Shown here piece after piece: positions 1 to 9,044 of a stretch of 64,000 bases of DNA; position 1 is the first letter of the stretch, and every line of letters starts with the position of its first letter. The stretch is from an uncultured Saprospiraceae bacterium (GTDB lineage: Bacteria > Bacteroidota > Bacteroidia > Chitinophagales > Saprospiraceae). Below the pieces are notes generated by a model. That model was not told the DNA's origin and searched no databases. It saw nothing but the letters and a program-made list of their open reading frames with translations. Both the position numbers and the translations under genes were made by a program. The stretch is from the NCBI GenBank assembly GCA_937928045.1, contig CALFWO010000032.1, forward strand, positions 62,001 through 126,000. Reading direction: 5' to 3'.

Positions 1-105
1 AAAGAGGGAAAATTGGTTCATTTCTTAGAGCGCCATCACATTGAAGGTAGAAGCGCAGAAATAATTGCGCAGAATTTAAAAATGGCGTACGACCACTTTT
101 GCTAA
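1..105 (+). CDS. C-terminal fragment of an unidentified protein
   Basis: Frame 1 is open from the window edge to a TAA at 103-105 and encodes 34 residues ending in ...MAYDHFC. The start lies outside the window. The fragment is mixed charged and hydrophobic (HFLERHHIEGRSAEII), compatible with a soluble helical C-terminus, but I do not recognise the family. A strong bidirectional terminator follows 25 bases later, which supports this being a real gene end. Confidence 0.55.
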   Translation, partial: KEGKLVHFLERHHIEGRSAEIIAQNLKMAYDHFC

Positions 106-130
106 ATCACTTTGATTTTGGAAAAAAAAA

Positions 131-157
131 GCAGGATGATTATCATCCTGCTTTTTT
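131..157. terminator. Bidirectional intrinsic terminator
   Basis: A perfect 8-bp stem (GCAGGATG / CATCCTGC, 131-138 and 144-151) with loop ATTAT is flanked by an A-tract at 122-130 and a T-tract at 152-157. It can therefore end the plus-strand gene that finishes at 105 and the minus-strand gene that finishes at 177. Confidence 0.9.
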
Positions 158-176
158 AGTTTAATACCTAAGGTAT

Positions 177-890
177 TTAACTCGCCTCTACAGTTTTATA
201 TTTTCTAATTTCTTGGCTCACTTGGTTCACCGCACACTTCAACATTTCTGAAGTATCGTTAAGAACATCATAAAATTCGGCTGCCGGATTCGCTTTAGTT
301 TGATCTTCTATAGTATCGACTAATTGCATAATGGTATGCAAGCCCATCATTCTCACATTGGACTTCATCCTATGAGCTGATTTTCCAATCGCATCAAGAT
401 CTTTTTGGGGAATTGCCTTTTCAATATTTTCCATTTCCTCATTTACTACGGTCACGAAAATCTCCATTAAATCCAGCTTTAAAGCTGTTCTACCTTTAGT
501 AATTCTGTCCAAATACTCAAAATCAGGCAGTGTATCACTTTCGTTAATTGTTGTGTCGCGAGAAATGCCAGATAGGATGCTTTGAAAAGTAGCGGCGTTG
601 AAAGGATGCTTCATAAAATGGCTAACCCCTCCGTTCAAAATATTATCAATCTCCGTTGAATTTTCCAAGTCACCTATGGCTACAATCGTTGTTTTACCCC
701 TAACTGCATTCAATACATTTGGAACAAATTCTAATCCGCAAACAATCAAATCAAATTCTTCATTGCTCAGCGCATTACACATAGCTGGTGCAGCCATTGC
801 ATACTTAGCACTCCATTCACTTTGACCTTTTAAGGCATTTAAAAAATTGACCTGGCTCACGTGGTCTGTATCGGCATACAAAATTTTCAT
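177..890 (-). CDS. Pseudo-receiver domain plus HPt phosphotransfer protein
   Basis: A 237-residue cytoplasmic two-component protein. Residues 1-110 look like a CheY-like receiver: acidic residues D7 and D9 near the N-terminus, a DLIV strand, and the conserved lysine K94 in the MKHPF motif. The phospho-acceptor position is glycine (DLIVCGL, G52) instead of aspartate, so canonical phosphorylation is not expected. Residues 125-230 form an HPt helical bundle with the phosphorylatable histidine in AHRMKSN (H173, K176), which looks intact. The protein could relay phosphate through the HPt domain while the receiver-like domain serves for docking. I start at the ATG at 890; the TTG one codon upstream is less likely. 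It is monocistronic and no histidine kinase is adjacent. Confidence 0.8.
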   Translation of the reverse strand: MKILYADTDHVSQVNFLNALKGQSEWSAKYAMAAPAMCNALSNEEFDLIVCGLEFVPNVLNAVRGKTTIVAIGDLENSTEIDNILNGGVSHFMKHPFNAATFQSILSGISRDTTINESDTLPDFEYLDRITKGRTALKLDLMEIFVTVVNEEMENIEKAIPQKDLDAIGKSAHRMKSNVRMMGLHTIMQLVDTIEDQTKANPAAEFYDVLNDTSEMLKCAVNQVSQEIRKYKTVEAS

Positions 891-1083
891 CAAGTAGTAT
901 TTACGGATAGCAAATCAAGAGAGACAACATAAAAATCTACTAGACATACCAATCCTCCTTTACCAAGCGGTAATCAAAGCATAAAGTAGAAAATAGATTA
1001 GGGGACACGTTTTCTCTATCTACTGTAATTCAAGTACTATACCAATTTGAATAATTTTCAATATGGCGCGAGAAAAAATTTAA

Positions 1084-1734
1084 TCAAGGGGCTATTCTTA
1101 CTGAATACCAGTCGTTTAAATCGTTTTTTTGATATAAAATTCTGTCATGCAAGCGAGACCGTCGACCTTGCCAAAACTCCATTTTGGAAGGTTTCAAACA
1201 ATACCCTCCCCAAAAAGGTGGGATGGGCAAAAACTCTTCTGATTTAAATTTCTCTTCTATCGCCGTTACCCGATTTTCTAAAAGTTCACGATCATCAATA
1301 ACTTTTGACTGCGGTGATGCCCATGCTCCAACTTGACTTCCTCTAGGTCTACTTTGAAAGTATTTAAGCGCAGATGCTCTATCTGTTTTTTGAACGGTTC
1401 CTTCTATACGTATTTGCCTTTGAAGGTCTAACCACAAGAAAAGTAAGCTTGCTTTAGGGTTTTCTTCAAGTACTTTCCCTTTAGAACTCTCATAATTTGT
1501 GTACCAAACAAAACCATCTTCACTCAATCCTTTCAATAATACTGTTCGTTGACTAACATGACCCGTTAAGTCCGAAGTTCCAAGAATCATAGCATTGGGC
1601 TCCTTTATCTCAGCATGTTGGGCTTCCTTAAACCAAGCTTTGAATTGATCAATAGGATTGTTAAGCACATCCTCAACATCTAAGGAATTTGCCAGGTAAT
1701 CTTGTCTTAAATTTTCTAAATCCTCATTATTCAT
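1084..1734 (-). CDS. pdxH: Pyridoxamine 5'-phosphate oxidase
   Basis: PdxH oxidises pyridoxamine or pyridoxine 5'-phosphate to pyridoxal 5'-phosphate with FMN and O2, the last step of PLP synthesis and salvage. At 216 residues it has the normal family length. It carries the typical series of motifs: RTVLLKG, the FVWYTNYESSKG FMN-binding segment, FLWLDLQRQIRIEG, the SRPRGSQVGAWAS block, and the C-terminal FWQGRRSRLHDR ... VRIAP block that contacts substrate phosphate and FMN. The ATG at 1734 gives the usual N-terminal helix. The gene stands alone on the minus strand; PLP users in this window include cysM and lysA. Confidence 0.97.
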   Translation of the reverse strand: MNNEDLENLRQDYLANSLDVEDVLNNPIDQFKAWFKEAQHAEIKEPNAMILGTSDLTGHVSQRTVLLKGLSEDGFVWYTNYESSKGKVLEENPKASLLFLWLDLQRQIRIEGTVQKTDRASALKYFQSRPRGSQVGAWASPQSKVIDDRELLENRVTAIEEKFKSEEFLPIPPFWGGYCLKPSKMEFWQGRRSRLHDRILYQKNDLNDWYSVRIAP

Positions 1735-1800
1735 AACTGATTACTTTGCAGTAAAGTTAGGCCTAGACATAGAAATAAGCATCAAAAGATGTTAGGAATA

Positions 1801-2235
1801 TTATTTTTTCTTTTTGAATCGATAGCCTAGATCCAATCTGAGATAAGGAATAAATGGAGAATTTTCGATTCCTCGGCCAGCACCAATTCCAAACTCGAAA
1901 ATAAGGCCTTTCTTTGCGACAATCTTTTGTCCTATTTGGAATCCTCCGCCAAAAGCCCCAGGGCCGGCTCCAAGAAAAACACCAACATTAAATCGATCTA
2001 ATCCTTCCCTTGGATTGAAATAGTATTTTCCGCTTAAGAAAGCAATTCCGGCAGCCTCTTCAGGAAAAACCACGCCGTAAAGCTCAATTCCAATATTATC
2101 TCTGATTCCATATTCAGCGGCAATTGTAGGAACTCCGAAAATTAATGCGATCGGATTCGATTTAAGTTCAAATTGAGCAGAAGCAGCGCATGAAAAAAGA
2201 ATGGCGAAGATTATGGTGGTAAGGATCGATTTCAT
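1801..2235 (-). CDS. Small predicted outer-membrane beta-barrel protein
   Basis: A 144-residue protein with a Sec signal peptide (hydrophobic residues 4-20, cleavage likely after ASA). The rest is glycine-rich with alternating hydrophobic and polar residues: repeated 'GIELYGVVF', 'FNVGVFLGAGPGAF' and 'IFEFGIGAGRG' style strands and a C-terminal LRLDLGYRF strand ending in a lysine run. This pattern suits a small barrel or a surface-associated protein. No specific family is recognised. It lies 66 bases upstream of pdxH on the same strand, so co-transcription is possible. Confidence 0.6.
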   Translation of the reverse strand: MKSILTTIIFAILFSCAASAQFELKSNPIALIFGVPTIAAEYGIRDNIGIELYGVVFPEEAAGIAFLSGKYYFNPREGLDRFNVGVFLGAGPGAFGGGFQIGQKIVAKKGLIFEFGIGAGRGIENSPFIPYLRLDLGYRFKKKK

Positions 2236-2278
2236 AGCTTTTTCCTTAAAGAAAGTAAAAATATCCTAAAAAAAGAAT

Positions 2279-2334
2279 CCCCCGAGGGACACTCGGAGGA
2301 CAAAACAAAAAACAAACACTATGAACAAACACTT
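2279..2334 (+). repeat. Hairpin plus leader repeat, copy 1
   Basis: The imperfect inverted repeat CCGAG(2282-2286)/CTCGG(2292-2296) is followed by an A/C-rich leader and ATGAACAAACACTT. The ATG at 2321 opens a frame of only nine codons (stop 2348-2350). Bases 2298-2334 match 2678-2714 with a single substitution. It looks like the 5' end of a gene whose body is missing, or a leader-peptide/attenuator unit. Confidence 0.65.
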
Positions 2335-2450
2335 TTTTATATCATACTAGTTTCCAATCTGTCTTATCCAAATGGTTCAAATTACATAACTAGGAAAGAC
2401 CACTTTTAGTGATCAAATTCGATGCTTTCAAATGGAAAAGTTTAAAAAGG

Positions 2451-2468
2451 CCCCGAGTAAACTCGGGG
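2451..2468. repeat. CCCCGAGT/ACTCGGGG hairpin
   Basis: A perfect 8-bp inverted repeat (2451-2458 and 2461-2468) separated by two bases has the same CCGAGT core as the hairpins at 2279 and 2660. The A-rich stretch after it resembles the leaders of the other copies only weakly. No start codon of the ATGAACAAAC type follows. Confidence 0.6.
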
Positions 2469-2659
2469 TCCGGATTAAACATATAAAAAACACTCTACCC
2501 TTTCAAAATTGGGCGATAGCTTCCAAATCAACTTTCTTCAGGAGTTGATCTTTGGCCTCGCGGGCTAGAGGATTGGATTATAAACAATTCAAATAGATGA
2601 AGGGGATCATCATTACTGGGGGGTAACAATGTGCAGGTGTTCATAAAGGGGAAAAAGTT

Positions 2660-2784
2660 CCCGAGTACTACTACTCGGGACAAAACAAAAAACAAAAACT
2701 ATGAACAAACACTTGCCCTATAAAAATAGGTCTCGCAATTCAGCGAGTAAATTTCTTTGTGGCCATTACGACCAACACTTATAA
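2660..2784 (+). repeat. Hairpin plus leader repeat, copy 2, with 27-codon ORF
   Basis: A perfect 8-bp stem CCCGAGTA (2660-2667) / TACTCGGG (2672-2679) with loop CTAC comes first. The duplicated leader and the ATG at 2701 follow. The frame runs 27 codons to TAA at 2782-2784. The predicted peptide starts MNKHLPYKNRSRNS, is basic, and has no signal peptide or recognisable family. Whether it is translated is unknown. Confidence 0.5.
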
Positions 2785-3030
2785 ACTTGCAAATCGTTTG
2801 CCAAACTGACTATTTGCTTCCCTAATTTGTAGGTAATTTTTAAATGATTTTTTATGATTATACATAACATCATGATTCATCGTAAAAAATATATATGTAT
2901 TGATAGAAAAAATATTGATTGTAATTAAAGCCCCATTTTTTAATGATTGCCTTGATAGTATAAATCAAATTCAATCTCGTTTTTTTGAATCTTCACTAGT
3001 TGTGATTGGAGGAATATTACCTTGAAAAAC

Positions 3031-3069
3031 AAAAAAAGGTTCTTCACTTTACTAAGTGAAGCACCTTTT
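3031..3069 (-). terminator. Terminator of the RND efflux operon
   Basis: An 8-bp stem CTTCACTT/AAGTGAAG (3042-3049, 3054-3061) extends, after one mismatch, into AAAAGGT/ACCTTTT. Read on the minus strand it ends in a T-run (complement of the A-tract 3031-3037). It lies 20 bases beyond the permease stop codon. Confidence 0.9.
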
Positions 3070-3088
3070 GCAAAAGTTCTTGATTAAA

Positions 3089-6000
3089 TTAGTTTGCTTT
3101 AAATAATCCTCTTGCCCATCTATTGAATCTGTAGGATAACCAATACATCGCGGGTACTACCACAAGTGTTAGGAAAGTTGCGAACGTCAAACCATATATA
3201 ACAGTCAATGCCATAGGCCCCCAAATTGCAGTATTGTCTCCACCCATAATAATATTTGGATCCAAATCTGAAATCAAAGTAAAGAAGTTGAAATTAAATC
3301 CAATCGCTAGCGGAATCAAACCAAGTACTGTTGTTATCGCGGTCAACAACACAGGCCTTAATCTGGTTGCACCTGCCACAACTATCGCCTCTTTCACTTC
3401 ATCCGTATTCAATCCCCATAGTGATTCAACCCCATTCTCAGTTCGTTTTCTCTTTATCAACAAATTAATATAATCTATTAGTACAATGGCATTGTTCACA
3501 ACAATGCCCGCAAGCGAGATTACTCCAACTCCTGAGAAAATCTGTTGAAACACTGAACCTGTTAGATAGTATCCTAGGAATACGCCAGTCAAACTAAATA
3601 CTATTGACAATATAATGATGAATGGTGCTACTACTGAGTTAAACTGTGCCACGATAATTAAGAAAATCGAAAAAATTGCAACTGCAAAAGCTCCCAAAAG
3701 AAATTCTGTATCCTGAGCTTGTTGCTCTTGTGCTCCTGTGAATTTATAATTCACTCCTTCTGGAAATTCAAAATTTTCTAACTCTCCTTTTATTTCCGCC
3801 ACAACATCATTCGCATTGTATTCAGAAAGTACATTTGACGAAATTGTAATCGCTCTATCCAAATTAATTCTTTTTACCGAGGAGAATGTGGAACTGTATT
3901 CTGCCGTAGCGACTGCTGATATTGGTATTTGAACTATTCTTCCATTCGCAGGATTTCGGAACGTTACTCTTTGATTCAAGAGTTCATTAATATCATATCT
4001 TTTATCCTTATCAAGACGTACAAAAATATCATATTCATCTTCTCCCTGTTTGTATTTAGAAATTTCCTTTCCATATACTGAGGTACGAATTGCATCAGCA
4101 ATAGAAAAAGTTGACAGTTCAAATCTTCTTGCTGCTTCTCGATCTATATTGATTACCAGTTCCGGCTTACCAATTTTCACATCAGCTTTGAGCTCTTCAA
4201 TACCTCCAATATTTGATTCATTAATATATTGAATCATGTCTTGAGAAGTCTGAGATAAAACTGCAACATCATCTCCTGCTAGTTCGATATTAATTGGTTT
4301 CCCTGTTGGAGGTCCATCTGCATTTTTATCCACTGCGATCTGAACTCCAGGTTGATCACCTACAGCTTTTCTGATTTCATTCATTACCGTCATAGAAGAA
4401 ACTCCATTTCGTTTTTCGTAAGGAACAAAAGAGACCGTCAATCTTGCCTTATTTGGAGAAGCGCCGGGTTCTGGTGGTGCATTAGGATCGGAAGTATTTT
4501 CACCGATTTGAGAAAGTACTTCTTCAACGATGTCTTTATAAGGAGCAATTGTCTCATCCACCTTTGCTTCAATATCAGTCATAATTTTATCCGTAGCTGT
4601 AATATCTTTTCCTAAAGGAAGGTCCACAAATACATTTACATACAGCGGATCTGCCGAAGGGAATTGTTCCATTTTAGGATCTGATCCAAAATAGATATTG
4701 GTAACAGCAATTAGCAATACAAAAGATCCAAAAAATACAATAACAGGATTTAACTTTTTCAATGCGAAACGAACAAATTTATCATAGATTCTTTCCAAAA
4801 ATGGAAGAACAGTATTTTGAAAACCCATAGAGGCTGCTCTCAAAATTAGCACATTGACTAAAGTTACTATTGCAATAATACCAAACAAGTTTCTTACCCA
4901 CATAGTATTGGTAACGTGACCGGCAATTGCAATCAGAACCAAGACAGCTGTCATGATTAATCCATTCATTAATTTTCTTCTCCTAACTTTTGGATCATCA
5001 GATCTTTCATCGATCTTCATAAAACTTGCCGTAAATACAGGATTAATCACCAATGCTACAAACAGTGAGGAAGTCAATACAATTACTAATGTGATTGGAA
5101 AGTATTTCATAAATTCTCCAATCAAACCAGGCCAAAATGCTAATGGGAAAAATGCTGCTAAAGTGGTAGCGGTGGATACAATAATAGGTATAGCTACTTC
5201 TCCTGCTCCGTACTTTGAAGCATCCTTTGCACTATAGCCTTCTTGCATATAACGATAAATGTTTTCTACAACTACAATTCCATTATCTACAAGTAAACCT
5301 AAGGCTAAAATCAGAGCAAAAAGTACAACAATATTCATGGTTACTCCAGAAAGATAAAGTAGCATAATTCCTGTCAACATAGACAATGGAATGGCGATTC
5401 CTACGAACATTGCATTTCTAATTCCTAAGAAAAAGAGTAAAACCAAAACAACAAGAATTACTCCTGATATTATAGAATTCTCAAGATTGGATACTTGATT
5501 TCTTGTATTAATAGATTGATCATTAAATACACTTACTCTAAGACCACCTGGAAATAAATTTATTTTTGACTCTTCGACCACTTTGTTTACCGCATCTGCA
5601 CAATTCAATAAATTCTCTCCTTTTCGTTTTATGACATCTAAGGAAATAACTGGGAATCCATTTGAACGCGCAATACTTGTTCTATCCTTGTAACCAAAAG
5701 TAACGTCTGCGATATCTCGAAGATATACTGGAGTTTGAGCTTCTGATTTAACAATCATATCTCGCAATTCATCAATGGATTCAAACTCTCCAACTACTCT
5801 TATCGCTCTTCGAAATTCATTATTTACAATTTCCCCTCCGGACATGTTCATGTTTTCAGAACGAATGGCATTTTCAATATCTCCAAAGCTTATTTGCCTT
5901 GCTTGTATGGCAGTCAAATCTACGTCGATTTGTACCTCACGTTCCATAGCTCCTTTGATGTCAACTTTATTAACTTCAGAAATTTCTTCTAGTCTATCTT

Positions 6001-6523
6001 TTAATTCGTCTGATATCGATTTCAAGTTGTCCATGCTGTAATCTCCAGAGAGGTTTACTGTCATGATCGGAATATCTGCCAAGTTTACATCAACCACTGC
6101 TGGATCAGCAGGTAAATCATTTGGCAATTCGCTTTTAGATTTATCAACTGCATCTTTAACTTTGCGCTTAACGATCTCAGGATCTGAATCTGTTGTAAAC
6201 TCCGCAGTGATAATTGAAAAATCTTGAATTGAAGTTGACTTGATATCTTTGATACCAGTGATTCCTTGAAGCTCTTTTTCTATTGGTCTAGTAATAAGAT
6301 TTTCAATATCCTGAGCGGAATTTCCTGGGTAAGGAGTATTGACAAATATTGTTGGGAAAACTGCCTCTGGAAATTGTTCCTTAGGCATTTTGTCATAGGA
6401 ATTCAAACCAAAAAGCAAGATCATTATTGTCAAAAGAAAAACGCTTGTTGCATTATCTACTGCCAATGTTGTAATCGAAAACTCCCGCAAAGACTCTTTT
6501 ATTTTTGCTAGTGGGTTAGCCAT
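3089..6523 (-). CDS. RND-family efflux permease (AcrB-like)
   Basis: A 1144-residue inner-membrane permease of the resistance-nodulation-division superfamily, which normally exports toxic compounds through an adaptor and a TolC channel. The family layout is clear: one N-terminal transmembrane helix (about 25-43), a large periplasmic porter loop, a block of helices around 345-500, a second periplasmic loop, and C-terminal helices around 955-1130. The fourth-helix motif reads LVDNGIVVVENI (D413, N414) and the tenth-helix motif VVNNAIVLID (N1010). AcrB has Asp-Asp and Lys at the equivalent proton-relay sites, so two of three polar residues differ. It is slightly longer than AcrB because of an inserted hydrophobic and charged stretch near 505-565. 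It is the last gene of tetR-tolC-adaptor-permease; substrate unknown. Confidence 0.95.
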   Translation of the reverse strand: MANPLAKIKESLREFSITTLAVDNATSVFLLTIMILLFGLNSYDKMPKEQFPEAVFPTIFVNTPYPGNSAQDIENLITRPIEKELQGITGIKDIKSTSIQDFSIITAEFTTDSDPEIVKRKVKDAVDKSKSELPNDLPADPAVVDVNLADIPIMTVNLSGDYSMDNLKSISDELKDRLEEISEVNKVDIKGAMEREVQIDVDLTAIQARQISFGDIENAIRSENMNMSGGEIVNNEFRRAIRVVGEFESIDELRDMIVKSEAQTPVYLRDIADVTFGYKDRTSIARSNGFPVISLDVIKRKGENLLNCADAVNKVVEESKINLFPGGLRVSVFNDQSINTRNQVSNLENSIISGVILVVLVLLFFLGIRNAMFVGIAIPLSMLTGIMLLYLSGVTMNIVVLFALILALGLLVDNGIVVVENIYRYMQEGYSAKDASKYGAGEVAIPIIVSTATTLAAFFPLAFWPGLIGEFMKYFPITLVIVLTSSLFVALVINPVFTASFMKIDERSDDPKVRRRKLMNGLIMTAVLVLIAIAGHVTNTMWVRNLFGIIAIVTLVNVLILRAASMGFQNTVLPFLERIYDKFVRFALKKLNPVIVFFGSFVLLIAVTNIYFGSDPKMEQFPSADPLYVNVFVDLPLGKDITATDKIMTDIEAKVDETIAPYKDIVEEVLSQIGENTSDPNAPPEPGASPNKARLTVSFVPYEKRNGVSSMTVMNEIRKAVGDQPGVQIAVDKNADGPPTGKPINIELAGDDVAVLSQTSQDMIQYINESNIGGIEELKADVKIGKPELVINIDREAARRFELSTFSIADAIRTSVYGKEISKYKQGEDEYDIFVRLDKDKRYDINELLNQRVTFRNPANGRIVQIPISAVATAEYSSTFSSVKRINLDRAITISSNVLSEYNANDVVAEIKGELENFEFPEGVNYKFTGAQEQQAQDTEFLLGAFAVAIFSIFLIIVAQFNSVVAPFIIILSIVFSLTGVFLGYYLTGSVFQQIFSGVGVISLAGIVVNNAIVLIDYINLLIKRKRTENGVESLWGLNTDEVKEAIVVAGATRLRPVLLTAITTVLGLIPLAIGFNFNFFTLISDLDPNIIMGGDNTAIWGPMALTVIYGLTFATFLTLVVVPAMYWLSYRFNRWARGLFKAN

Positions 6524-6552
6524 TTTGTTATATTTTAAACCTAAATAAAAGG

Positions 6553-7695
6553 TTACTTTTCTACTTTAATAAGTTCCTGATCTCCTAGTCCAATTGCACC
6601 ATCCATAATTAATTCTTCCCCTCCTTTCAAACCATCGGTAACAATTATTTCTCCTTTGTCTGCTTCACCAGTTTCAATAATTACTTTTTGCGCAAATTCC
6701 CCAGTCTCATTTGTTCCTTTTATATACACATAACTGTCTCCGCTGATTTCTTGCTGAACCAAATCTAATGGAACAAGTACAGCTGCTTTTTCAGAATAGT
6801 CCTTGAAAAAAACAGAGGCCAACAAGTTTGGTTTCAATACTCTGTTTGCATTGTTTAAATTGATGACAACTTCGAAAGTTCTATTTCCTGGATTAATGGT
6901 AGGGCTAATTCTAGTGATCCGTGCATTTCGACTTTCTTCTAAGGCTGGAAATTCAACCTTTACTAATTGTCCAGCGCGTACGGATTTCAAATATCTTTCT
7001 GGGACATCTACCTTGACTTTTACTTTGGAAGTATTAAGCACTTGAATTATTGGTGTACCAGGTCCAGCCAATTCTCCAGTTTTCAAAAATACTTTTTCAA
7101 CAACCCCGCTAATCGGTGCAAATACGGATGATTTGGTTAATTGAAAATCTATAGTTTCTAAACTTTGTTTTAAACGGTCTACACTATTCTTTGCTTGGAC
7201 GAATTGAATCTCTGTACCAATTTTTTGATCCCATAAACGCTTTTGCCTGGCAAATAAGTCTTCAGCAAGCCCTAATGAAATTTCTACCTCTGAACGTTGC
7301 TTGGTTAAAGATTCCAAATCAACTGAAGCAACCAATTGGCCTCTTTTGACATACTGCCCTTCTTTGGGGGTTACTTTTGTCAATCTTCCTCCGGTTTCAC
7401 TACTCGCGAAAACAACTTCATCCGAAACTACAGAACCTTGAACCTCTGCATATCGCTCAAAGTCTCTTGCTTCCAAAATTTTGGTGGTTACCAATCTTCG
7501 CGGCTTTTCCTTTGGTGGATCTAATTTTAGAATTTCTTCTTCAAGTGTTTTAATTTCACTTTTTAAGGTCGCCAATTCAGCTTTTTTCTCTTTAACATCT
7601 GCTCTTTTTTGTTCTAATGGAGAAAGATTAGATTGAGGTTGACATCCAAATGCAATAACTGCAAATACAGATAAGTATATCAACTTGGTTTTCAT
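6553..7695 (-). CDS. RND periplasmic adaptor (membrane fusion) lipoprotein
   Basis: A 380-residue HlyD/AcrA-type adaptor that bridges the inner-membrane permease and the outer-membrane TolC channel. A lipoprotein signal peptide ends at the lipobox AFGC (C18). A short coiled coil rich in Lys/Glu (about 28-60) follows, then the biotinyl-lipoyl-like half (ETGGRLTKVTPKEGQYVKRG), an alpha-hairpin (about 130-185), the second lipoyl half (VFAPISGVVEKVFLKTG), a beta-barrel domain and a C-terminal membrane-proximal domain (ETGEADKGEIIVTDGLKGGEELI). It lies 29 bases upstream of the permease and 23 bases downstream of the tolC gene, so all are one operon. Confidence 0.95.
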   Translation of the reverse strand: MKTKLIYLSVFAVIAFGCQPQSNLSPLEQKRADVKEKKAELATLKSEIKTLEEEILKLDPPKEKPRRLVTTKILEARDFERYAEVQGSVVSDEVVFASSETGGRLTKVTPKEGQYVKRGQLVASVDLESLTKQRSEVEISLGLAEDLFARQKRLWDQKIGTEIQFVQAKNSVDRLKQSLETIDFQLTKSSVFAPISGVVEKVFLKTGELAGPGTPIIQVLNTSKVKVKVDVPERYLKSVRAGQLVKVEFPALEESRNARITRISPTINPGNRTFEVVINLNNANRVLKPNLLASVFFKDYSEKAAVLVPLDLVQQEISGDSYVYIKGTNETGEFAQKVIIETGEADKGEIIVTDGLKGGEELIMDGAIGLGDQELIKVEK

Positions 7696-7718
7696 ATTGA
7701 TAGAATTTTAAATTCAGT

Positions 7719-9044
7719 TTATTTACCTAAAGACTTGTCTAATGCAGACTTCGCAGTTAGCAAATCAAAAAGTGCTTGGTTGTAATTTTGTTGGGTATTA
7801 AATAAGCTAGTTTCGGCCTGGGTTATTTCGAGGCTTGATCCAACTCCTTCTTTGTATTTAATTTGAGCTGTATCGTATATTTTTTGGGCCAATTCAATAT
7901 TTCTCTGCTGTAATTCGACGCGCTTTGCAGCATTTCGATAATTTCCACGAGCATTGTTCACTTCTAATAAAATTGCTCTTTGCAGATCATTCTTCTGATT
8001 ATTGTAAGTTTCTAATTGCAGTTCAGCTCTTCTGAGTTTTGCATTTCTTTGCAAGCCACTAAATATTGGTACATTCAATTGAAGACCGGCAATAGCAGTT
8101 GGAAACCAGAATGGATCTTTGAATAAATTGTTGCCTTGTGCACTGTAAGAATAAGAAGCAAATCCCCCTACGCTTGGCAAATAAGCTTGCTTTTGCAAAT
8201 CAACATTTAGCTCATTCAATGCAATGACTTTTTCAAAAACTCTAAAATCTGCTCTACTTTGGAAATTTACAGCACCAAGTAAATCGTCGGCTTCCACTTC
8301 TTTCAACAAATCTTGAACATTGTCTGAAATCGCTAATGCTTCCTCAATAGGATATCCCATTTGAAATTTTAGAAAATTGAACGAAAGTTCTAGTTGACGG
8401 CTAAGATTTTCTTGCTCTGTTTCTAAGTTTGCAATACTCAGGTCCAATCTGTCAATGTCTAATTGTTCTGCAAATCCTGCCTCTACCAAGGCTTTTGTTT
8501 CAACCCTTAGTTTATTTAGATTAACAATATTTTTTTCTAAGGTCGACTGATTTGACTGAATGATTAGTGCCGGATAATAAGCGTCTTTAACATTCTGTGC
8601 CAACTCTTGTTTGGTTTGAGCCATTTGCTCAGAAGCATAAGACTTGGCTTCTCTCGCTGCTTTCAAACCTACAAAGTAAGAACCGTCAAAAATCAAAGCA
8701 GAGGCTTGAATCTTTGCTTCAAAAGAATTGGTTGTTCCGAATTGAACTTCAGCAAAATCTCCTTCCATAGCAGTTGGATCAAAAAATTGAGCTGGAATTA
8801 AGGAAGTAGGTAAATCTATAAAATAGTTATAACCAACAGTGGCATTTACTTGAGGTATTCCCACCGCTCTTCTTTCAATAATTTGTTGTTCAGCATCCGC
8901 AATATTAATTTGACTATTCTTAATGGCGTTTGAATTTTTCATTGCATAAGCCACCGCCTCTTCCAAAGTGAAAGTTTTCGCATTTTGCGCAACAACAAAT
9001 TGCAAGCTCAGGCAGAATAGTATGAGTAAAAAATTATTTTTCAT
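7719..9044 (-). CDS. TolC-family outer-membrane efflux channel
   Basis: A 441-residue outer-membrane factor for the RND pump. A Sec signal peptide (cleavage after FVVAQ or nearby) is followed by two OEP repeats: TLEEAVAYAMKNSNAIKN opens the first helical/beta unit, and the second begins around residue 250. Long amphipathic heptad-like helices (ELQLETYNNQKNDLQRAI, the 'GVGSSLEITQAETSLFN' segment near the end) are typical of TolC periplasmic tunnels. Its ATG (9042-9044) lies inside the last codons of tetR, an 11-bp overlap that suggests translational coupling. Confidence 0.95.
   Translation of the reverse strand: MKNNFLLILFCLSLQFVVAQNAKTFTLEEAVAYAMKNSNAIKNSQINIADAEQQIIERRAVGIPQVNATVGYNYFIDLPTSLIPAQFFDPTAMEGDFAEVQFGTTNSFEAKIQASALIFDGSYFVGLKAAREAKSYASEQMAQTKQELAQNVKDAYYPALIIQSNQSTLEKNIVNLNKLRVETKALVEAGFAEQLDIDRLDLSIANLETEQENLSRQLELSFNFLKFQMGYPIEEALAISDNVQDLLKEVEADDLLGAVNFQSRADFRVFEKVIALNELNVDLQKQAYLPSVGGFASYSYSAQGNNLFKDPFWFPTAIAGLQLNVPIFSGLQRNAKLRRAELQLETYNNQKNDLQRAILLEVNNARGNYRNAAKRVELQQRNIELAQKIYDTAQIKYKEGVGSSLEITQAETSLFNTQQNYNQALFDLLTAKSALDKSLGK

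Follow-up and report, generated by a model that had tools for sequence, protein, structure and literature searches.

Within the window, the stretch of 64,000 nt analysed here (CALFWO010000032.1, 62,001-126,000, forward strand), whose numbering is used for its coordinates throughout, the region between acrB and the gene of a 144-aa protein most probably carries, on the minus strand of positions 2268-2803, three candidate small RNAs in tandem, ordered A-C-B (Table 1). The genome to which the window belongs comprises 5.18 Mb in 75 contigs.

Table 1. Features of the array and of its neighbourhood. Positions are those of the window, except in the last row, which refers to loci of relatives.
Feature	Position	Strand	Basis or remark
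Sigma-54 type -24/-12 promoter motif TGGCA-N6-TTGCA, upstream of sRNA A	2788-2803	-	10/12 consensus letters
Candidate sRNA A: 5' hairpins, conserved core, terminator	2651-2777	-	5' end predicted from the promoter motif alone
Core of A, GTGTTTGTTCATAGTTTTTGTTT	2690-2712	-	complement of part of the leader + ATG of the earlier note
Terminator hairpin of A, then T-run	2659-2680	-	terminator scan
Conserved core of candidate RNA C, GTAGAGTGTTTTTTATATGTTT	2477-2498	-	12 rows in relatives
Terminator hairpin of C, then T-run	2451-2468	-	stem letters vary among relatives, pairing kept
Candidate sRNA B: short, mostly unpaired core + terminator	2268-2341	-	conservation ends ~9 nt before the core
Core of B, GTGTTTGTTCATAGTGTTTGTTT	2310-2332	-	alignment and exact-core search
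Terminator hairpin of B, then T-run	2277-2301	-	terminator scan
144-aa protein gene, next gene downstream, neighbour outside the unit	1801-2235	-	no Pfam or NCBIfam match
pdxH (pyridoxamine 5'-phosphate oxidase), common downstream neighbour	1084-1734	-	Pfam PF01243/PF10590
Members of the ~270-aa protein cluster	L049:1159-1965, L117:5985-6803, L104:1001-1789	+

The earlier note on this DNA had described three hairpins with a CCGAG/CTCGG core, two of them followed by the same leader running into an ATG. All three hairpins are found, at the positions of the three terminators in Table 1, and the direct repeat is there as well (2298-2334 and 2678-2714; 37 nt, 36/37 identical, offset 380). Each hairpin is followed by a T-run on the minus strand, where the order of elements is AAGTGTTTGTTCATAGTKTTTGTTTTTTGTTTTGT-hairpin-T-run, and the "leader" is therefore the complement of the stretch directly 5' of the terminator. 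The repeat of leader and ATG thus exists but was read on the wrong strand: it is the complement of a U-rich element that precedes two of the terminators. The hairpin at 2451-2468 has no such repeat because it is part of the third candidate RNA, C. That the hairpins have the CCGAG core in common is in part incidental: the stems of relatives come in many different sequences.

A scan of positions 1500-3500 yielded seven terminator-like sites, compared with 1.3 (sd 1.2) in shuffled sequences; six of the seven lie on the minus strand, and three of these six are the hairpins of the array. Another terminator-like hairpin (3042-3061, minus strand), after acrB, sets the efflux gene apart from the RNA array. 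Compared with shuffled sequences, the candidate RNAs have fold z-scores of -3.81 (A), -4.06 (B) and -3.09 (C).

Anatomy and distribution of the candidate RNAs

To determine how widely the array is conserved, we searched the genomes of relatives with the exact core GTGTT(T)GTTCATAGTKTTTGTTW (22/23 nt, in the A or the B form). It is present in 92/248 genomes of the family, with 0/248 for the reversed control, and in 66 of the 190 family genomes with at least 90% completeness and at most 5% contamination. In a sample of 395 genomes drawn from the class it occurs in three, all of them among the six that come from its own family, i.e. in 0/389 class genomes outside the family. These counts are lower bounds because variants, e.g. 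the copy in genome G208, escape an exact search. A 17-mer with one mismatch was found in 127/248 genomes of the order and 64/247 of the class, in a search where the reversed control also matched often. When the intergenic region of the window was searched for in 60 genomes, 18 matched (including the window's own), mostly with the two elements just 5' of the terminators. The contigs of named genomes contain at least 118 stretches with the core; of 80 of these, 79 carry names from Bacteroidota, most of them Saprospiraceae but Lewinella and Phaeodactylibacter as well, and the remaining one is named only "bacterium"; from these names we judge the family to be Saprospiraceae. The leader is hence strongly conserved in relatives and, together with the terminators on the minus strand, this conservation bears out the suggestion of the earlier note that a small-RNA unit is kept and repeated here.

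The array has no match in Rfam: window positions 1-8000, searched at E up to 5, gave nine sub-threshold matches, all elsewhere, and six relatives compared with Rfam 15 at the gathering score gave none, so a known RNA was discarded as a candidate in these sequences. A search of open-licence papers found no literature on small RNAs of Saprospiraceae or Lewinella, and to our knowledge few regulatory RNAs of Bacteroidota have been characterised. We file the array as a new RNA family, whose kind, tandem sibling sRNAs, is already known.

The 118 stretches listed contain at least 171 exact copies; type A (CATAGTTTTTG) accounts for 86 of these and type B (CATAGTGTTTG) for 85. Among the listed B copies with enough upstream sequence, 27 are one T short and are termed here type b. 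Directly 5' of the core, type A usually has GGGTGA, while types B and b have a box mostly ending in TTA or ATA (among the matches listed); conservation of the flank ends about 9 nt upstream of the core. The 119 loci listed comprise 47 with both types, 35 with B only, 34 with A only and three with two A copies, and wherever both types were recognised (47/47 of these loci) A lies 5' of B on the same strand. A perfect stem and a T-run follow the core in 164 of the 168 listed copies with enough sequence, i.e. the elements look like stand-alone intergenic genes ending in an intrinsic terminator, as members of the sRNA class do. The commonest stem start, CCCTGTCA, accounts for 50 of the copies listed and the others are diverse; with so many stem sequences in use, it is the pairing and not the sequence that has been kept. 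In the consensus fold of an alignment of 66 selected copies, two terminator pairs show changes on both sides, a count that is crude because the stems are misaligned there. Terminator stems of A and B are alike in stability (medians -14.3 and -14.2 kcal/mol). The cores, by contrast with the stems, are almost unchanged over 22-23 nt in both siblings.

Candidate RNA C has a core of its own, GTAGAGTGTTTTT(T)ATATGTTT, for which we found 12 rows in L003-L005 and the 118 named stretches scanned; not all of these rows are independent: L005 and L025 are taken to come from one genome, L004 and L098 look alike, and L030 and L051 come from near-identical genomes. C lies between A and B in all rows that have both on the stretch, and its stems differ among rows. 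To judge from their letters, A and B are siblings with a common long U-rich core, and the core of C differs.

The copies also speak to how the plus strand should be read. Its frames are 9 and 27 codons long, as had been stated, and they open on a start codon in a start-like setting, which is what made decayed copies of the 5' end of a highly expressed gene, or a leader peptide, conceivable. In relatives, however, these frames vary in length and sequence, the median being 9 codons for the 87 copies of type A, 4 for the 59 of type B and 17 for the 27 of type b (among the matches listed); the 1-nt deletion of type b shifts the frame, and the T-runs lie on the other strand. Since the frames are not conserved, we reject both a decayed gene and a leader peptide, and give such readings hardly any credence.

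We regard as very improbable a mobile or REP/MITE-like repeat with no regulatory role, to which the repeated copies, up to five per array (in locus L048), would be congenial. Further copies elsewhere in the genome, which the earlier note had proposed to look for, do not exist: the leader with its ATG has two exact matches in the whole genome (reversed control, 0), and both lie within the array. Flanks that are not conserved past about 9 nt and stems that change while their pairing stays likewise argue against such a repeat. A mobile origin was rejected on comparison with plasmids, which gave no match, and with phages, where a single weak one was found (E 0.5). The array of L048 (1732-2309, minus strand) consists of one A and four b copies, the latter about 110 nt apart, which suggests a recent change in copy number.

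Promoter motifs and genomic context

The sigma-54 motif of the window lies 75 nt upstream of the A core and predicts a transcription start near 2777; a gene for RpoN is present in the genome. Among the matches listed, a motif with at least 9/12 consensus letters lies upstream of 18/81 A copies, 1/55 B copies and 0/27 b copies, while in control windows of 200 nt taken from the same loci the same score was reached in 153/8813 random and 138/7302 intergenic-like windows (1.7-1.9%). The motif is thus enriched upstream of A. Judged by the similarity of site and spacing, the 18 A copies with the motif appear to come from about nine lineages. The other 63 of the 81 A copies listed have no strong sigma-54 motif, and searches with sigma-54 and sigma-A motifs identified no promoter for these or for B. 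The complete sigma-A type motif TTG-N17-23-TAnnTTTG occurs in 0/65 A (shuffle mean 0.7), 3/44 B (shuffle mean 0.6, maximum 5) and 0/22 b copies, and the -7 box alone in 7/65 A (shuffle mean 5.5), 10/44 B (mean 4.1, maximum 10) and 1/22 b copies (mean 2.1), all among the matches listed. Sigma-A promoters were accordingly set aside as not clearly above shuffles, with B coming nearest to an excess. The distance from the A terminator to the 5' box of B is at most 40 nt in 15 of the 46 A-B pairs measured among the matches listed; with gaps this short, synthesis of B may require read-through and processing, or a promoter overlapping the A terminator.

Analysis of the gene neighbourhood (simple ORF calls, among the matches listed) shows that the array and the first gene downstream share a strand in 62 loci and lie on opposite strands in 42; for the first gene upstream the counts are 84 and 19. 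Of the two genes closest to the array on its upstream side, at least one belongs to the AcrB cluster in 35 loci; of the two closest on its downstream side, at least one belongs to the pdxH blastp cluster in 53/119 loci (both among the matches listed). The latter association, and the position of the B terminator in the window, which ends about 40 nt upstream of a gene on the same strand, would suit a cis-acting attenuator or leader, chiefly of pdxH, in which the tandem terminators regulate read-through into the downstream gene. We consider this improbable. A pdxH leader should always be upstream of its target gene and co-directional with it, and this is not what the loci show: in 42/104 loci (among the matches listed) the array is followed by a gene on the opposite strand, downstream neighbours among the ten proteins examined include unrelated ones, e.g. 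GlgC-like, T9SS-signal and lyase proteins, and in the window itself the 144-aa gene separates the array from pdxH. As a general explanation, a cis-leader of pdxH is rejected in view of these varied and often opposite-strand downstream genes. Because gene contexts differ between loci, the array looks autonomous, and the unit is best seen as an independent gene array; the conserved core, variable flanks and independence of context are those of the sRNA class.

Two further features of the neighbourhood were observed. The 144-aa gene stands between the array and pdxH in the window; in many relatives pdxH directly follows the array. A cluster of uncharacterised proteins of about 270 aa (Table 1) adjoins the array in 20 of the loci listed, mostly just upstream of A and sometimes duplicated; three members tested against Pfam and two against NCBIfam gave no match.

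The core as a complement of start regions, and comparison with known sRNAs

The complement of the core, AAACAAAMACTATGAACAAACAC, contains an ATG in an A-rich setting. The 430 gene starts predicted in the window and in the named stretches have an excess of A at positions -14 to -10, at -3 and in codons 2-3; this agrees with the A at -3 of starts reported for Flavobacterium johnsoniae in the portion of that study used here (PMC6847099). Aligned on its ATG, the complement scores 13.43 against these starts for A, compared with 13.02 (sd 0.19) for shuffled versions, of which 4/300 score as high, and 13.27 compared with 12.83 for B, with 3/300 as high; there is no surplus of very good matches among the 430 starts. 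The complement also discriminates between predicted start ATGs (449) and other ATGs (28305), with an AUC of 0.69 for A and 0.70 for B, a level reached by 0/500 strings of random letters and, among shuffles of the same composition, by 11/500 (A) and 3/500 (B).

Genomes outside the family lend independent support. The 17-mer with at most one mismatch matches 58 loci, 55 of them outside the family, and in 33 of these 55 a frame of 80 codons or more begins at the ATG of the complement, close to the upstream stop of that frame. Eight exact 17-mers were read, of which seven lie on starts of open frames and one, in G208, belongs to an A RNA. Three of the seven genes presumably encode RecA of one genus, and we take a fourth to encode an ECF sigma factor. 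As the matches outside the family mostly lie antisense on start codons, the core is the in-register complement of a typical start region. This likeness shows no more than what the core could bind, and much of it is a matter of composition. In L364, L365 and L366, which come from one outside genus (genomes G153, G173 and G143), a putative recA start exactly complements the 17-nt core, and the search of the order gave no sign of an array in these three genomes.

Searches for target sites within the family showed no enrichment. In nine chosen genomes an 11-mer matched 59 sites (14 in the RNAs themselves, 45 non-self) compared with 53 for the reversed pattern, and a 15-mer matched 42 sites in the 248 family genomes compared with about 55. 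Gene-start matches, defined as starts of frames of at least 150 codons, were found at 5/30 loci (of the 42 sites), compared with 5/18 sites for a misregistered pattern. In the window's own genome, a search with at most three mismatches gave 17+18 sites, compared with 15+15 for the reversed pattern; loci were available for 30/35 of these sites, three of these loci are the array itself, and two of the rest resemble the starts of long genes, which we take to be mqo-like (L153) and to encode a secreted protein (L164). No recurrent orthologous target gene was found in the own genome, the nine chosen genomes or the 248 family genomes. One gene start in genome G032 (L255, G032:C1:173972) matches the complement of 17 nt of the B core without a mismatch, its ATG lying within the 17 nt, and is a possible target; the gene presumably encodes an OmpA-like lipoprotein, and its start would be the best single target candidate, albeit an anecdotal one. 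The gene-start candidate that the 11-mer search gave in G000 we assume to be a YidE-like transporter.

Hfq (PF17209) was found in 0/60 genomes, while the control was positive in 5/14 named genomes; an Hfq-dependent sRNA would call for a host that encodes Hfq, which was not detected in these 60 genomes. The core of B folds mostly unpaired. In 16 A RNAs modelled from the sigma-54 motif, the core has a mean unpaired probability of 0.57, compared with 0.46 for the whole RNA, although it is below 0.4 in five of the 16 and below 0.5 in six.

The reading that we favour, with a probability of roughly three in four, is that A and B are sibling sRNAs which, independently of Hfq, pair with start regions and act like GibS and FopS of Bacteroides. 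In the window's genome A would be transcribed from the sigma-54 promoter, and B would arise either as a processed read-through product or from its own promoter. The core of A or B would then pair in trans, with no need of Hfq, with the A-rich start-codon regions of mRNAs, ATG included, and the pairing would block initiation of translation.

The U-rich core could instead be the site of an RNA-binding protein, for which the RNAs would serve as a decoy or sponge in the manner of CsrB and CrcZ. An almost invariant core in both siblings is compatible with this, as is the 1-nt change in GTGTT(T)GTTCATAG (type b), which is easier to reconcile with two short boxes or a small GUG/CAU loop than with a continuous duplex; the family searches showed no enrichment of targets, and Bacteroides RbpB, in the excerpts drawn on here, binds a 41-nt motif in sRNAs. 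Nevertheless, each RNA has a single copy of the core and not many repeats, and the core complements the start region in register beyond composition, so we hold a protein-binding role to be unlikely. Pairing at start codons is preferred because of this register and of the precedent of GibS and FopS in Bacteroides.

A bolder version of start-codon pairing takes the core as the complement of a consensus, Kozak-like start region of Bacteroidota, and the family-specific, Hfq-free, partly sigma-54-driven siblings as a broad brake on initiation, to which the third RNA would add a second specificity. This proposal is tentative and, on balance, rather doubtful; if true, the array would act on initiation generally rather than on a few chosen mRNAs. 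With a core that hardly varies in the family and complements a start region, the RNA pair makes the question of how Bacteroidota control translation with neither Shine-Dalgarno sequences nor Hfq directly testable in cultured relatives, e.g. Phaeodactylibacter, of which P. luteus KCTC 42180 (L088) and P. xiamenensis KD52 (L062) have the core.

Among known systems the nearest are GibS and FopS, which, according to the sections of the reports used here, pair around mRNA start codons in Bacteroides (PMC7366714, PMC11697453). The likeness, drawn from descriptions of those RNAs and not from sequence, comprises a Bacteroidota host that lacks classical RNA chaperones, paralogous multicopy sRNAs (in the case of FopS), and a long single-stranded seed that pairs at the starts of mRNAs with no Shine-Dalgarno sequence (same sources, same sections). 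The 14 FopS genes are described there as spread over several loci and served by sigma-ABfr promoters, each RNA having its seed at the 5' end, whereas the array has two or three RNAs in tandem, a core that adjoins the terminator (in the window's A, 65 nt from the predicted 5' end) and a sigma-54 motif at some A copies. Three short letter strings sought in the FopS text and one sought in the GibS text do not occur there.

The Qrr sRNAs of Vibrio are under sigma-54 control and depend on Hfq. They too are sibling sRNAs with a conserved core, of 32 nt in the part of the account that we cite (PMC4211561); compared by description, their genes lie apart, whereas those of the array are in tandem. Rfp18 of Flavobacterium resembles the array as a conserved Bacteroidota sRNA that affects mRNAs, and differs, again by description, in that its pairing is predicted to involve a stem-loop and that the cited portion describes no multicopy arrangement (PMC9723704). 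In its layout the array resembles PrrF1/PrrF2/PrrH of Pseudomonas aeruginosa, two tandem siblings in which, as the section cited has it, read-through of the first terminator gives a third RNA (PMC4211561); compared by description, in the array, with at most 40 nt between the A terminator and B in 15/46 of the pairs listed, read-through may be needed for B to be made at all.
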